A DNA stretch of 64,000 bases from Planctomycetota bacterium (lineage in GTDB: Bacteria; Planctomycetota; Phycisphaerae; Phycisphaerales; UBA1924): assembly GCA_033763975.1 (NCBI GenBank), contig JANRJM010000002.1:124001-188000 (forward strand), in the 5' to 3' direction. The notes under the pieces are model-generated. The model did no database searches, was not told the origin of the DNA, and saw only the letters and a program-made list of their open reading frames with translations. The position numbers were made by a program, and so were the translations under genes. Shown one piece after another: positions 15,251 to 24,943 of this stretch (the stretch's first letter is position 1; every line of letters begins with the position of its first letter).

Positions 15251-16900
15251 GTGCCCCCGATCCCGCGTCAGCCCTGCGCCGCGCTGCTGGAACTCGAGTC
15301 GCAGGTGCGCTTCGCCCCGCGCGAGGCGCGTCGGCGCCTCATCGAGAACGCCGAGACGCTCTGCACCACGCTCGAGCCCCTCGCCCCGTGCTCGCACGCG
15401 CGCCTCGTCGAGGGCGTCACGGGCTTCCGCCCCGACGGGCACGACGACCGCCCGCTCGACGGGCGCGAGGTCGTCGCGGGGCTGGGCGCGTTCGTCGAGC
15501 GCCAGTGCCACGCCGCCCGCATGCTCGCCTCCGAGGCGCCCGGCGCGCTCGACGTCCCGGCGCTGCTGGCGCGCTGGTCGATCAGCCGCGCCACCCTCGG
15601 GCGTCTGCGCCGCCAGGGGCTGCCGGCCCGGCGCGTGCTCGACGCGCACGGGCGCTCGCGCGCCGTCTTCATGCCGCACGTCGTGGAATCCTTCGAAGCG
15701 CGGCACGGGGCGCTGCTCGCGCGGGCCGGGGCCTACGAGCGGATCTCCCCGCCCGAGGCGGCCCGGCTGCTACGGCGCGCCGCCCGCTACCACCGGCTGC
15801 TCGGGTGGTCGCGCACGCGCATCGCCAGGCACCTGAGCCTGCGCACCGGGCGCAGCGTCGAGGGGATCCGCGCGTTGCTCCTCCGCGGCGCGGGCGAGGT
15901 GTTCCGGGGCGTCGCGCGCTTGTCCGCGCGCGAGCGGGCGCTCCTCTTCCGGGCCGCCCGTCTGGGGATCGATCTCGGCACGCTCGCGCGTCGTGTGCAG
16001 CGTTCGCGCGCGTCGGTGCGCCACGCCATCAACGTCGAGCGCGCCCGGCGCCTGCGCGAACTCGCCTCGTCCGGCGCGCTCGCGCACGCCGATCACGCGC
16101 CCGCCCGCCCGACGCGCGACACCGCCGATCCGCTCGCCCTGCCGGGCGTCGGCGCCGACCTGGGCGCGGGGGGGCAGGCGCCCCTGGCCGATGTCCTCGC
16201 GCTCGCCGCCGATCGCACGCCCGCGCGCCCGTCGCTCGAACGAGCCCGGGGGCTGGCGCTGCAGTTCCTGCGCGCCCGGGCGGCGGGGGCGATCGCCCCG
16301 CTCGACGACGACCACCCGCGCGCGGAGGCGCTGGACGCGATCGAGACGGACCTGCGCTGGGCCGCCCGGCTCAAGGCCGAACTCGTGCGGGGCGAACTCA
16401 CGCTGATCGTCCGCGTGCTGGATGCGCGGCTTCCCGGGGGGCTCGCGTCGCTCCCGGTCGCGTCGATGCAGCGCGTGCTGCTCGAGGCCATCGACGCCGC
16501 CGCCGCGGGGGTCGACGCCTTCGACCCGGGGCGCGGCGGGCGCCTGGCCGGGCCGGTGGGCCTCGCGGTGGATCGCGTGGGCGTGCGCTGGGCGCGGGGT
16601 GTGCACGCCGCCCCGCAGCGCGCCCGCCCCGTGCTGGGCCCCGACGTGCGCCTGCCCGATTGGACCCGCGCGCTCTGCCCGTGGCAGCGCTGGCTCGAAC
16701 CCCCCGCGCGCGTGCGCGACTGGGCGCTTGGCGCGCCCGCCAACGATCCGCACGCCGCGTTCCTGCGCGCCCGCTTCGGCTGGAGCGGGCCGCCCCGCAC
16801 GCTGCGCGCGCTCTGCGCGGAACTCGGCATCCGCCCCACCCGCGCGCCGATCCTCGAATCCGAGGCCCTGCGGCACGCGGCACGCGCCGGCACGCGCTGA
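15251..16900 (+). CDS. Degenerate planctomycete-type sigma-70-like protein with N-terminal HTH modules
   Basis: 549 residues, GTG start. The layout recalls planctomycete sigma-70 factors that carry several DNA-binding modules before the core regions. Helix-turn-helix-like segments are at about 104-130 (LLARWSISRATLGRLRRQGL), 166-192 (LGWSRTRIARHLSLRTGRS) and 219-250 (IDLGTLARRVQRSRASVRHA). A region-2-like stretch at about 371-447 includes GELTLIVRVLDARLPGGL and GVDAFDPGRGGRL, but the aromatic residues normally used for promoter melting are missing. The C-terminal TLRALCAELGIRPTRAPILE matches the region-4 helix pattern. It may be a diverged sigma factor or a sigma-derived regulator. It is extremely rich in Arg and Ala. 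Confidence 0.6.
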   Translation: MPPIPRQPCAALLELESQVRFAPREARRRLIENAETLCTTLEPLAPCSHARLVEGVTGFRPDGHDDRPLDGREVVAGLGAFVERQCHAARMLASEAPGALDVPALLARWSISRATLGRLRRQGLPARRVLDAHGRSRAVFMPHVVESFEARHGALLARAGAYERISPPEAARLLRRAARYHRLLGWSRTRIARHLSLRTGRSVEGIRALLLRGAGEVFRGVARLSARERALLFRAARLGIDLGTLARRVQRSRASVRHAINVERARRLRELASSGALAHADHAPARPTRDTADPLALPGVGADLGAGGQAPLADVLALAADRTPARPSLERARGLALQFLRARAAGAIAPLDDDHPRAEALDAIETDLRWAARLKAELVRGELTLIVRVLDARLPGGLASLPVASMQRVLLEAIDAAAAGVDAFDPGRGGRLAGPVGLAVDRVGVRWARGVHAAPQRARPVLGPDVRLPDWTRALCPWQRWLEPPARVRDWALGAPANDPHAAFLRARFGWSGPPRTLRALCAELGIRPTRAPILESEALRHAARAGTR

Positions 16901-18636: not shown

Positions 18637-19794
18637 ATGCGCGCGATCGTGACCGGTCAGATCGGGATGGACAAGAAGCCCTACCTCGACGGGGCCGCAC
18701 GCTTCGCCGGGCAGCAGGGCGAGTCGCTCCAGGTCTTCCACGTCGGCGACATCATGTACAAGGAAGCGCCCGACGTCCGCCCGGGCAAGATCCTGGATCT
18801 CCCCATCTCGCGCCTGAACTCGCTGCGCCGCGCCGCGTTCAAGGACGTCATCTCCGAAGGACGCGACGTCCCCAACATGATCGTGAACACGCACGCCACG
18901 TTCCGCTGGCGGCACGGCCTGTTCGCCGCCTTCGACTACGACCAGATCTCCAAGCTCCAGCCCGACCTCTTCATCTGCCTCGTCGACAACATCGAGGTGG
19001 TGCACCACCGACTCCACGCCGACCACGAGATCGACGCCACGCTCAAGGACTGCATGGTCTGGCGCGAGGAAGAGATCCTCGCGACCGAGCTCATGAGCAA
19101 GACGATCCCCGACAGCCGCTTCTACATCATGGCGCGCGGGCGTCACTCCCCCACCACGCGCACGCTCTTCCGCCTGGTCTGCCGCCCGGGCATGCGCAAG
19201 GTGTACCCGAGCTTCCCGATGAGCCACGTCGTCGACATGCCCGAGGTGCTCGCCGAGATCGACGCCTTCCGCGCCCAGCTCGCCGAGCACTTCATCACCT
19301 TCGACCCCGGCGATGTCGACGAGAAGCTCCTGCTCGAACGCGCCATCGCCGCCAGCAAGGACGGCAAGGACTACCTCGACGTCGCGCCCCATGCCTTCGG
19401 CGGGGCCATCCCCGCCTCCGGCGCCCCCGGCGGCCCGGCACGCCCCATCCGCGTGCGCGTCCGCGAGGTCCTCGACATCGCCGGCGACATCGACGGCCAG
19501 ATCTACATGCGCGACTTCAAGCTCATCGACCAGGCCGACATGATCGTCAGCTACATCCCCGAGATCCCCACCGCCGGCGGGAAAGAGTTCCCCGGCCTCT
19601 CCAGCGGCGTCGAACGCGAGCTCCACCACGCCTTCGAGCACACCAAGGAAGTCTTCGTCGTCTGGAAGCCCCGCAAGTCGCCCAGCCCGTTCATCACCGA
19701 GACCGCCACCCGCATCTTCAAGAGCACCGAAGAGGCCCTCGCTTACTTCGAGGCCAACGGCTACTTCGGCGAACGCAACCTGTTCGGGCACTGA
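18637..19794 (+). CDS. Archaeal-type adenylate-kinase-like protein fused to a nucleoside-deoxyribosyltransferase-like domain
   Basis: 385 residues. Residues 1 to about 175 resemble archaeal adenylate kinase (AdkA): IVTGQIGMDKK at the P-loop position, FHVGDIMYKEA, NMIVNTHATFRW, LQPDLFICLVDN and a basic lid-like helix. The P-loop is altered: GxxGxxK (Gly7, Gly10, Lys13) is followed by Lys-Pro instead of Thr/Ser. Residues about 275-385 contain LIDQADMIVSYIPEIP, SSGVERELHHAFEHTKEVFV and KSTEEALAYFEANGYF, which recall nucleoside 2-deoxyribosyltransferase-like folds. The function is probably nucleotide handling but substrate and reaction are unknown. It is a single gene with a TATCGT hexamer at about 18609-18614 and GGGAG upstream of the ATG. 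Confidence 0.6.
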   Translation: MRAIVTGQIGMDKKPYLDGAARFAGQQGESLQVFHVGDIMYKEAPDVRPGKILDLPISRLNSLRRAAFKDVISEGRDVPNMIVNTHATFRWRHGLFAAFDYDQISKLQPDLFICLVDNIEVVHHRLHADHEIDATLKDCMVWREEEILATELMSKTIPDSRFYIMARGRHSPTTRTLFRLVCRPGMRKVYPSFPMSHVVDMPEVLAEIDAFRAQLAEHFITFDPGDVDEKLLLERAIAASKDGKDYLDVAPHAFGGAIPASGAPGGPARPIRVRVREVLDIAGDIDGQIYMRDFKLIDQADMIVSYIPEIPTAGGKEFPGLSSGVERELHHAFEHTKEVFVVWKPRKSPSPFITETATRIFKSTEEALAYFEANGYFGERNLFGH

Positions 19795-24510: not shown

Positions 24511-24625
24511 GCGCTCAACCGGAGTCTTCCCGGTGCCGATGGGTGGTGCGCACGGGTGGTTATCGCCGGTAGGCAGCAGCGCCCGCCGCCCACGCCGTTG
24601 TCCGTCCGAAGACCAGGAGCCTCGC

Positions 24626-24943
24626 ATGCCCCCGACCACCCGCCGCTCGAACACCCGTACCCGTCGCACCACCGCCCGTCGCACCACGACCCGCGGCACG
24701 ACGACGCGCAACACGACGACCCGCAACACGACGGCCCGCGCGACGACCCGCAACACCACCACCCGCAACACCACGACCCGCGGCACCACCGCCCGCACGA
24801 CGGCCCGCGGCACGACCACCTCGCCCCGCGCCACCCGCTCGACCACCACGCGCGCCACCTCGACCCGCACCAACACCCGCCCGACGACCATCTCCGGCTT
24901 CACCCGCACGACGACCCGGCGCATCGCCCGGGCCGCGGCCTGA
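24626..24943 (+). CDS. Threonine/arginine-rich pentapeptide-repeat-like protein
   Basis: A 105-residue protein made almost wholly of Thr and Arg, with a loose five-residue period (TTTRN, TTTRG, TTARA; for example TTTRGTTTRNTTTRNTTARA). It has no Asp, Glu or Lys, so it is strongly cationic. There is no signal peptide or hydrophobic stretch, and no family is recognised. It looks real: AGGAG lies 7 bases before the ATG and a perfect rho-independent terminator follows 32 bases after the stop. The simplest idea is a nucleic-acid-binding, protamine- or histone-H1-like protein, but that is a guess from composition. The DNA shows a matching 15-base period. Confidence 0.65.
   Translation: MPPTTRRSNTRTRRTTARRTTTRGTTTRNTTTRNTTARATTRNTTTRNTTTRGTTARTTARGTTTSPRATRSTTTRATSTRTNTRPTTISGFTRTTTRRIARAAA

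Follow-up and report, generated by a model that had tools for sequence, protein, structure and literature searches.

A two-domain protein of the class Phycisphaerae that pairs an archaeal adenylate kinase-like domain with a DNPH1-like domain is a candidate deoxynucleoside monophosphate N-glycosidase

The 385-residue open reading frame at 18637..19794 of the window, which is the whole 64,000-nucleotide stretch of planctomycete DNA analysed here, codes for a two-domain protein that is retained by most sampled genomes of the class Phycisphaerae and that in several lineages is encoded directly upstream of deoC. Its first half is predicted to adopt the fold of archaeal adenylate kinases (AdkA) and its second half that of the superfamily containing the 2'-deoxynucleoside 5'-phosphate N-hydrolase DNPH1 and the nucleoside 2-deoxyribosyltransferases (NDTs). 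The reading that we favour, and to which we give about an even chance, is that the protein is a 2'-deoxynucleoside 5'-monophosphate (dNMP) N-glycosidase, a hydrolase or possibly a transferase, joined to a repurposed NMP-kinase-fold domain that probably transfers no phosphate. The relevant features are as follows.

18637..19794, + strand: whole gene, 385 amino acids from an ATG start, with AdkA-like and DNPH1/NDT-superfamily domains (open reading frame, homologues, model)
18637..19188, + strand: predicted archaeal-AdkA-like NMP-kinase-fold domain, residues 1-184 (Pfam AAA_17 in 87 of 87 members; structure match)
18655..18678, + strand: altered P-loop G7-Q-I-G-M-D-K13-K14, the canonical form being GxxxxGK[ST] (homologue counts)
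18886..18909, + strand: N84-T-H-A-T-F-R-W91 (alignment with five archaeal kinases, homologue counts)
19012..19074, + strand: lid region and next helix, residues 126-146, with invariant K137-D138 and W142-REEE (homologue counts)
19186..19767, + strand: predicted DNPH1/NDT-superfamily domain, residues 184-377 (structure matches; weak PF05014)
19204..19206, + strand: Tyr190, putative counterpart of human DNPH1 Tyr24 and NDT Tyr7 if there is no gap in the first residues (start offsets)
19513..19515, + strand: Asp293, candidate general acid corresponding to DNPH1 Asp80 (placed from sequence context)
19600..19620, + strand: S322-S-G-V-E-R-E328, with candidate phosphate-binding Ser322 and candidate nucleophile Glu328 (spacing, hhalign, conservation)
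19684..19686, + strand: Ser350, candidate equivalent of DNPH1 Ser128', the partner-subunit phosphate ligand (invariant; putative equivalence)

The motifs that a sequence-only reading of this DNA had quoted (GQIGMDKKP, FHVGDIMYK, THATFRW and LQPDLFICLVDN) are all present in the 385-residue frame, which is flanked on the same strand by gatB 106 bases upstream and by a DUF4870 gene 141 bases downstream. That the frame is a real gene is indicated by a match without an internal stop in all 41 sampled genomes of the order, its own included, 40 of them near full length; the match in the remaining genome (G013) is a C-terminal fragment that spans residues 272-383 only. A Pfam scan of the window protein returned AAA_17 alone (E 1.1e-8, residues 30-131), and the NCBIfam adenylate kinase model PRK04040 scored 26.4 bits, short of its cut-off of 155. 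Four family libraries were scanned (Pfam, NCBIfam, PADLOC and PHROGs), and the protein as a whole is named in none of them; PHROGs gave weak scattered matches only, one of which links a single member to an NDT family (E 0.056). Elsewhere in the window, a 549-residue frame before gatB (15251-16900, + strand) has no Pfam match and looks helix-turn-helix-like by eye, and positions 24600-24940 are of low complexity, with repeated Thr-Thr-Arg or Val-Val motifs in open reading frames of both strands.

When the class was sampled with an 8-row profile, the gene was found in 170 of 198 genomes, as one match in 164 and two matches in six. The 28 genomes without it include three f8 genomes that are 98-99% complete. 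In a phylum sample searched with an 87-row profile, 39 of 392 genomes carry the gene, 38 of them in the class (own genome included) and one outside it. The lone match outside (L045 in G258) comes from a bin of 1020 contigs that is 83% complete; its contig measures 6.6 kb and is possibly misbinned. A contig search found at least 576 relatives. Those ranked best, 80 in number, carry Phycisphaer-, Planctomycet- or uncultured-type titles apart from one Leptolyngbya and one Tepidisphaera. The record titled Leptolyngbya sp. PLA1 (L053, QWIH01000004.1) holds a Phycisphaerales-type gene at 86% identity and its title is probably wrong. One genome (G455) has two divergent family copies, L197 and L198 (608 and 555 bits), either a paralogue or contamination. 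Among the matches listed, seven from family f99 contain one stop codon each; since the open reading frame is 360 residues long in both of those extracted (L201 and L205), this stop seems to fall where the match ends on its C-terminal side. Searches of plasmids, phages and viral contigs, and of the PADLOC library, gave no match to the family, and a phage or defence gene was rejected on these empty searches. We read the gene as a chromosomal core gene that codes for a metabolic enzyme of the class Phycisphaerae.

Residue conservation was counted over 185 distinct homologues, many of them closely related and so not independent, which were drawn from the 238 of 241 loci that have at least 330 residues; two of the three loci left out (L204 and L209) are 100-base placeholders. 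One locus extraction took in 48 of 51 loci. The diverse alignment A2 holds 87 of 88 rows at 47-78% identity (L104 left out) and alignment A3 holds 38 of 39 rows (L131 left out). Over the whole protein 66 positions are near-invariant (identical in at least 184 of 185); this count takes 66 of 67 listed positions and omits P267, which was flagged from gaps in most rows.

Single-sequence folding of the window protein gave an unusable model (pLDDT 35.5), and the 87-row alignment was used instead. The resulting AlphaFold2 model has a mean pLDDT of 93.5 and a pTM of 0.91, with residues 255-262 inside the C-terminal domain as its sole run of three or more residues under pLDDT 50. Top Foldseek chains were realigned with VIA-align 2. 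The single unrelated fold that had been set beforehand as the refuting outcome did not appear; the model instead matches AdkA-like structures over residues 1-184 and deoxyribosyltransferase-like structures over residues 184-377, in agreement with the domain pairing proposed from the sequence. The C-terminal domain had been placed from residue 270, which proved too short, since the structure matches begin at 184-187. In a viral fold library most of the entries returned were unnamed or resembled nucleotide kinases, and those named as NDTs came at ranks 17 and 29 with a TM-score (query) of at most 0.32. As had been anticipated, no described protein with this pairing was found, the search covering open-licence PMC papers.

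The C-terminal domain matches the 2'-deoxyribosyltransferase 7o62 at Z 14.9 (rmsd 2.0, 128 residues aligned) and human DNPH1 9i57 at Z 14.4 (rmsd 2.7, 132 aligned), a gap of less than one Z unit that we treat as a tie. Further matches include DNPH1 (RCL) 4kxl at Z 13.7 and the L. leichmannii NDT 9gn4 at Z 11.6, and the NDT and DNPH1 chains among the rows listed range from Z 11.5 to 14.9. At the level of sequence the match is weak. PF05014 (Nuc_deoxyrib_tr) is weakly matched by 27 of 87 members (E no higher than 1, and 0.0011 at best), by the window protein not at all at E up to 10, and by no protein of its own genome at E 0.001; the C-terminal profile alone, searched against PDB sequences, found neither DNPH1 nor NDT. 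The resemblance to nucleoside 2-deoxyribosyltransferases suggested by the sequence-only reading is borne out by the fold match and the weak PF05014 hits. An hhalign comparison with 11 planctomycete PF05014 proteins was marginal (probability 1.7%, E 0.029, 77 columns), and its weak pairing sets Ser322 opposite the PF05014 Asp and Glu328 opposite the PF05014 Glu.

The candidate catalytic residues are conserved without exception, with Tyr190, Asp293, Ser322, Glu328 and Ser350 each present in 185 of 185 homologues. In DNPH1 the catalytic triad is described as Y24, D80 and E104, with S98 and S128' as phosphate ligands (PMC10603095). The structure alignments start collinearly, model residues 184-187 lying on human DNPH1 18-21 and 184-186 on NDT 1-3; with these constant offsets, and given no gap, residue 190 would fall on DNPH1 Y24 and NDT Y7, the latter being the residue whose mutants are named in two NDT entry titles among the structure matches. 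The spacing of six between Ser322 and Glu328 is that of S98/E104 in DNPH1 and of S97/E103 in MilB. The likeness to DNPH1/Rcl extends over the predicted C-terminal fold, the candidate Tyr, Asp and Glu of the triad, and the Ser that precedes Glu by six residues. In contrast, DNPH1 chains cover only the C-terminal domain, and neither DNPH1's Arg30 nor its LTEHV element is kept here: the Arg30 position (Tyr+6) is Ser in 143 and Thr in 42 of the 185 homologues, and the window protein has no LTEHV (DNPH1 E55-H56), in whose place FDPGDxxE seems to stand.

Two other members of the superfamily, the hydroxymethyl-CMP N-glycosidase MilB and phage DmtZ, likewise act at the nucleotide level. MilB has a phosphate-site Ser as here, and DmtZ is described as having small non-charged residues at this site. 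Unlike the present family, MilB has Phe at the Tyr190 position and is described as using Arg23; a Tyr at this position favours deoxyribose according to section 7 of PMC10603095. The descriptions of MilB and DmtZ drawn on here mention no AdkA-like domain, and they give a dUTPase-like domain as a possible fusion partner of DmtZ. NDTs are described as holding the 5'-OH with Asp or Asn, and the hydrolases characterised so far as acting on monophosphates (both PMC12884076).

The gene neighbourhood also points to deoxynucleotides. In at least 11 of the 170 genomes, from four family-level groups, the gene is followed on its own strand by deoC at a distance of no more than about 240 bases: f9 (G394, G245, G294, G195, G320, G486), f108 (G389, G459, G447), f104 (G336) and f7 (G097), the genomes within one family sharing ancestry and not being independent. 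Two more f108 genomes, G479 and G425, have deoC on the same strand 1.1 and 2.6 kb away. With script-assumed starts, the coding ends of the two genes overlap by 4 bases in L134, L136, L137 and L192. All seven of the DeoC proteins tested scored above the TIGR00126 cut-off, including that of L200, where deoC is about 1 kb from the fusion gene. Among 40 sampled loci plus the window, deoC is the commonest neighbour cluster, with nine loci, one of which (L141) has it 3.3 kb away and on the opposite strand; the family itself and two clusters of frames taken as antisense over the gene were set aside. No broadly conserved neighbour was seen in these 41 loci, and the window's own gatB and DUF4870 genes fall in no cluster of four or more loci, so no inference was drawn from them. 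The loci L133, L134, L136, L137, L192, L194 and L200 have a block common to most of them, with a prfA-like gene upstream in some and then deoC; the same block holds genes that by eye resemble those for anthranilate/aminodeoxychorismate synthase, aminodeoxychorismate lyase, Nif3 and ScpB.

Adjacency to deoC is a feature of a minority of genomes (at least 11 of 170), and in the genome analysed here the DeoC-family genes sit on other contigs. Among the matches listed, deoC went undetected in some genomes that have the fusion gene, such as G027 and G031. As the two genes track each other poorly across genomes, either one occurring alone in some, we use only their adjacency as evidence. DeoC consumes deoxyribose 5-phosphate, the expected product of dNMP hydrolysis. 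Hydrolysis of dNMPs by DmtZ has itself been assayed by coupling to DeoC, as described in PMC12884076.

From these observations we infer that the C-terminal domain would most likely cleave 2'-deoxynucleoside 5'-monophosphates at the N-glycosidic bond, using the retaining mechanism known from its superfamily. Specifically, Glu328, held by Tyr190, would attack C1' while Asp293 protonates the leaving base, the 5'-phosphate would be held by Ser322 and perhaps by Ser350 of a partner subunit, and the resulting deoxyribosyl-5-phosphate enzyme would be resolved by water or by another base. The 2-deoxyribose 5-phosphate so released would pass to DeoC, which is encoded directly downstream in several lineages. 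Both the replacement of the transferase Asp by Ser322 and the adjoining deoC of some lineages suggest dNMPs, rather than nucleosides, as the substrate.

An unlikely alternative, though the best placed of those we weighed, is that the protein is a 2'-deoxyribose-5-phosphate transferase that exchanges the base of a dNMP as phage DmtZ does, in which case hydrolysis would be a side reaction. Pro224 is invariant (185 of 185) and resembles a Pro described as conserved in transferases (PMC12884076), so that base transfer by the C-terminal domain may be possible, and Ser322 favours a 5'-phosphate; DmtZ is described as combining both features in one enzyme. Against this, a deoC directly downstream in several lineages suggests that free deoxyribose 5-phosphate is made, the equivalence of Pro224 to DmtZ Pro57 is putative, and mutation of Pro57 is reported to have abolished neither activity of DmtZ (PMC12884076).

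Our preferred reading of a dNMP N-glycosidase also assigns a non-phosphorylating role to the N-terminal domain. Residues 1-184 match archaeal adenylate kinases 6ln3 at Z 20.9 (rmsd 2.0, 183 aligned) and 6pjw at Z 20.9. The suggestion that this half follows archaeal AdkA closely was right as to the fold and wrong as to closeness, identity being 14-22% in structure-based alignments and PRK04040 staying below its cut-off. What is shared with archaeal AdkA (6ln3, 6pjw, 1nks; Z 16.8-20.9) is this predicted fold, the TH motif and the G37-x-x-M40 segment; unlike AdkA, the family here does not conserve Walker A or the DTH Asp, has unrecognisable lid arginines and is a fusion. The altered P-loop without Thr/Ser after Lys, already remarked on from the sequence, is a fixed family feature, with GxxxxGK[ST] occurring in 0 of 185 homologues. 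Position 12 is Asp or Glu in 181, position 13 is Lys in 181 and Arg in four, and position 14 is Ser or Thr in only three, whereas archaeal AdkA P-loops keep the Thr/Ser (GVGKT, GVGKS and the methanococcal GVGGT). The DTH Asp, which is D-T-H in all five archaeal kinases aligned, is Asn in 184 homologues and Ser in one. No conserved arginine is present at positions 126-136 among the 185 homologues, the commonest being at position 128 in 74; R125 (177 of 185) or K137 and R143 (both 185) could replace a lid arginine, the alignment of the lid being weak. R64, R65 and H86 are present in 185 of 185 homologues and R90 in at least 184. Near-invariant positions number nine of 40 in the AMP-flap region (37-76), 10 of 44 in residues 77-120, nine of 40 in the lid and next helix (121-160) and two of 16 in beta-1 and the P-loop.

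Because the signatures of the ATP side (the Walker A Gly and Thr, the DTH Asp and apparently the lid Arg) are replaced family-wide, this half is most likely non-phosphorylating. We read it as a predicted nucleotide-binding domain whose ATP side is gone, though it may be a diverged kinase that still works. It would keep the adenylate-kinase fold and the conserved nucleotide-monophosphate side and most likely binds or presents a nucleotide or senses nucleotide level. The genome has two other genes above the cut-off of PF00406 (adenylate-kinase family), so the fusion gene is probably not the housekeeping adenylate kinase. These two (C17:214797-215276 and 215700-216176; L274 and L275) are on one strand, separated by about 420 bases.

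It is somewhat less probable still than base transfer, and in our view improbable, that the protein is bifunctional, with a kinase that works on nucleosides or NMPs despite its odd P-loop and a C-terminal domain that edits or recycles the product. The strong conservation of K13, R64, R65, H86, R90, K137 and R143 would suit such an enzyme, and the fold is known to tolerate P-loop changes: three methanococcal kinases aligned carry GGTT, in which the P-loop Lys is missing and the Thr kept, the reverse of the family here. An altered P-loop alone is therefore no proof of lost kinase activity. Weighing on the other side are the absence of GxxxxGK[ST] from every homologue, the near-universal Asn for the DTH Asp, and the lack of a conserved arginine at 126-136, set against the critical lid arginine described for the M. 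igneus adenylate kinase (PMC10883716). The Zobellia galactanivorans HGPRT/adenylate kinase fusion, another natural joining of adenylate kinase to a salvage enzyme, differs in having a phosphoribosyltransferase as partner and in being described as a bifunctional catalyst (PMC7326950).

We give little credence to the idea of an ordinary nucleoside 2-deoxyribosyltransferase with free deoxynucleosides as its substrates. The top C-terminal structure match is the transferase 7o62, tied with DNPH1, and NDTs (PF05014; 7o62, 9gn4, 8qc0) share the predicted fold, the triad candidates and the weak PF05014 hits. The family nevertheless differs from them in its fused kinase-like domain and in the Asp/Asn that holds the 5'-OH, which appears as Ser in 185 of 185 homologues if the weak hhalign pairing is right. 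Least probable is a role in regulation or signalling, with some other nucleotide, such as a dinucleotide, being cleaved or sensed. Two fused nucleotide-binding folds and many near-invariant residues outside the textbook sites leave room for another ligand; against it stand a chromosomal core gene with no defence or mobile context in the searches made and the deoC linkage. Of the two roles first suggested, nucleotide salvage holds and is sharpened to dNMPs by Ser322 and deoC, and signalling found no support.

A broader and more tentative proposal, which we hold at clearly less than even, is that in the Phycisphaerae an adenylate kinase of archaeal type became a module for presenting or sensing nucleotides, and that this module controls the fused dNMP N-glycosidase. 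Acting with DeoC, the protein would then provide a pathway dedicated to clearing certain deoxynucleotides, perhaps modified ones, from the pool and to recovering their carbon. Such a pathway would be the bacterial equivalent of DNPH1 sanitation, present in almost the whole class and equipped with a regulatory domain of its own. Because of the deoC linkage, the claim of dNMP cleavage can be tested directly. Human DNPH1 is called a drug target (PMC10603095), and a distant two-domain bacterial form would on that account help to explain specificity in the superfamily.

Retention of the gene in 170 of 198 class genomes, together with the 66 near-invariant positions, is usually a sign of an important role. 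Ribonucleotide nucleosidases such as Amn and PpnN are known. If the protein does cleave dNMPs, deoxynucleotide editing at the monophosphate level would be a core function of a bacterial class, and the N-terminal half would be a natural example of how a kinase fold can come to serve as a partner domain.
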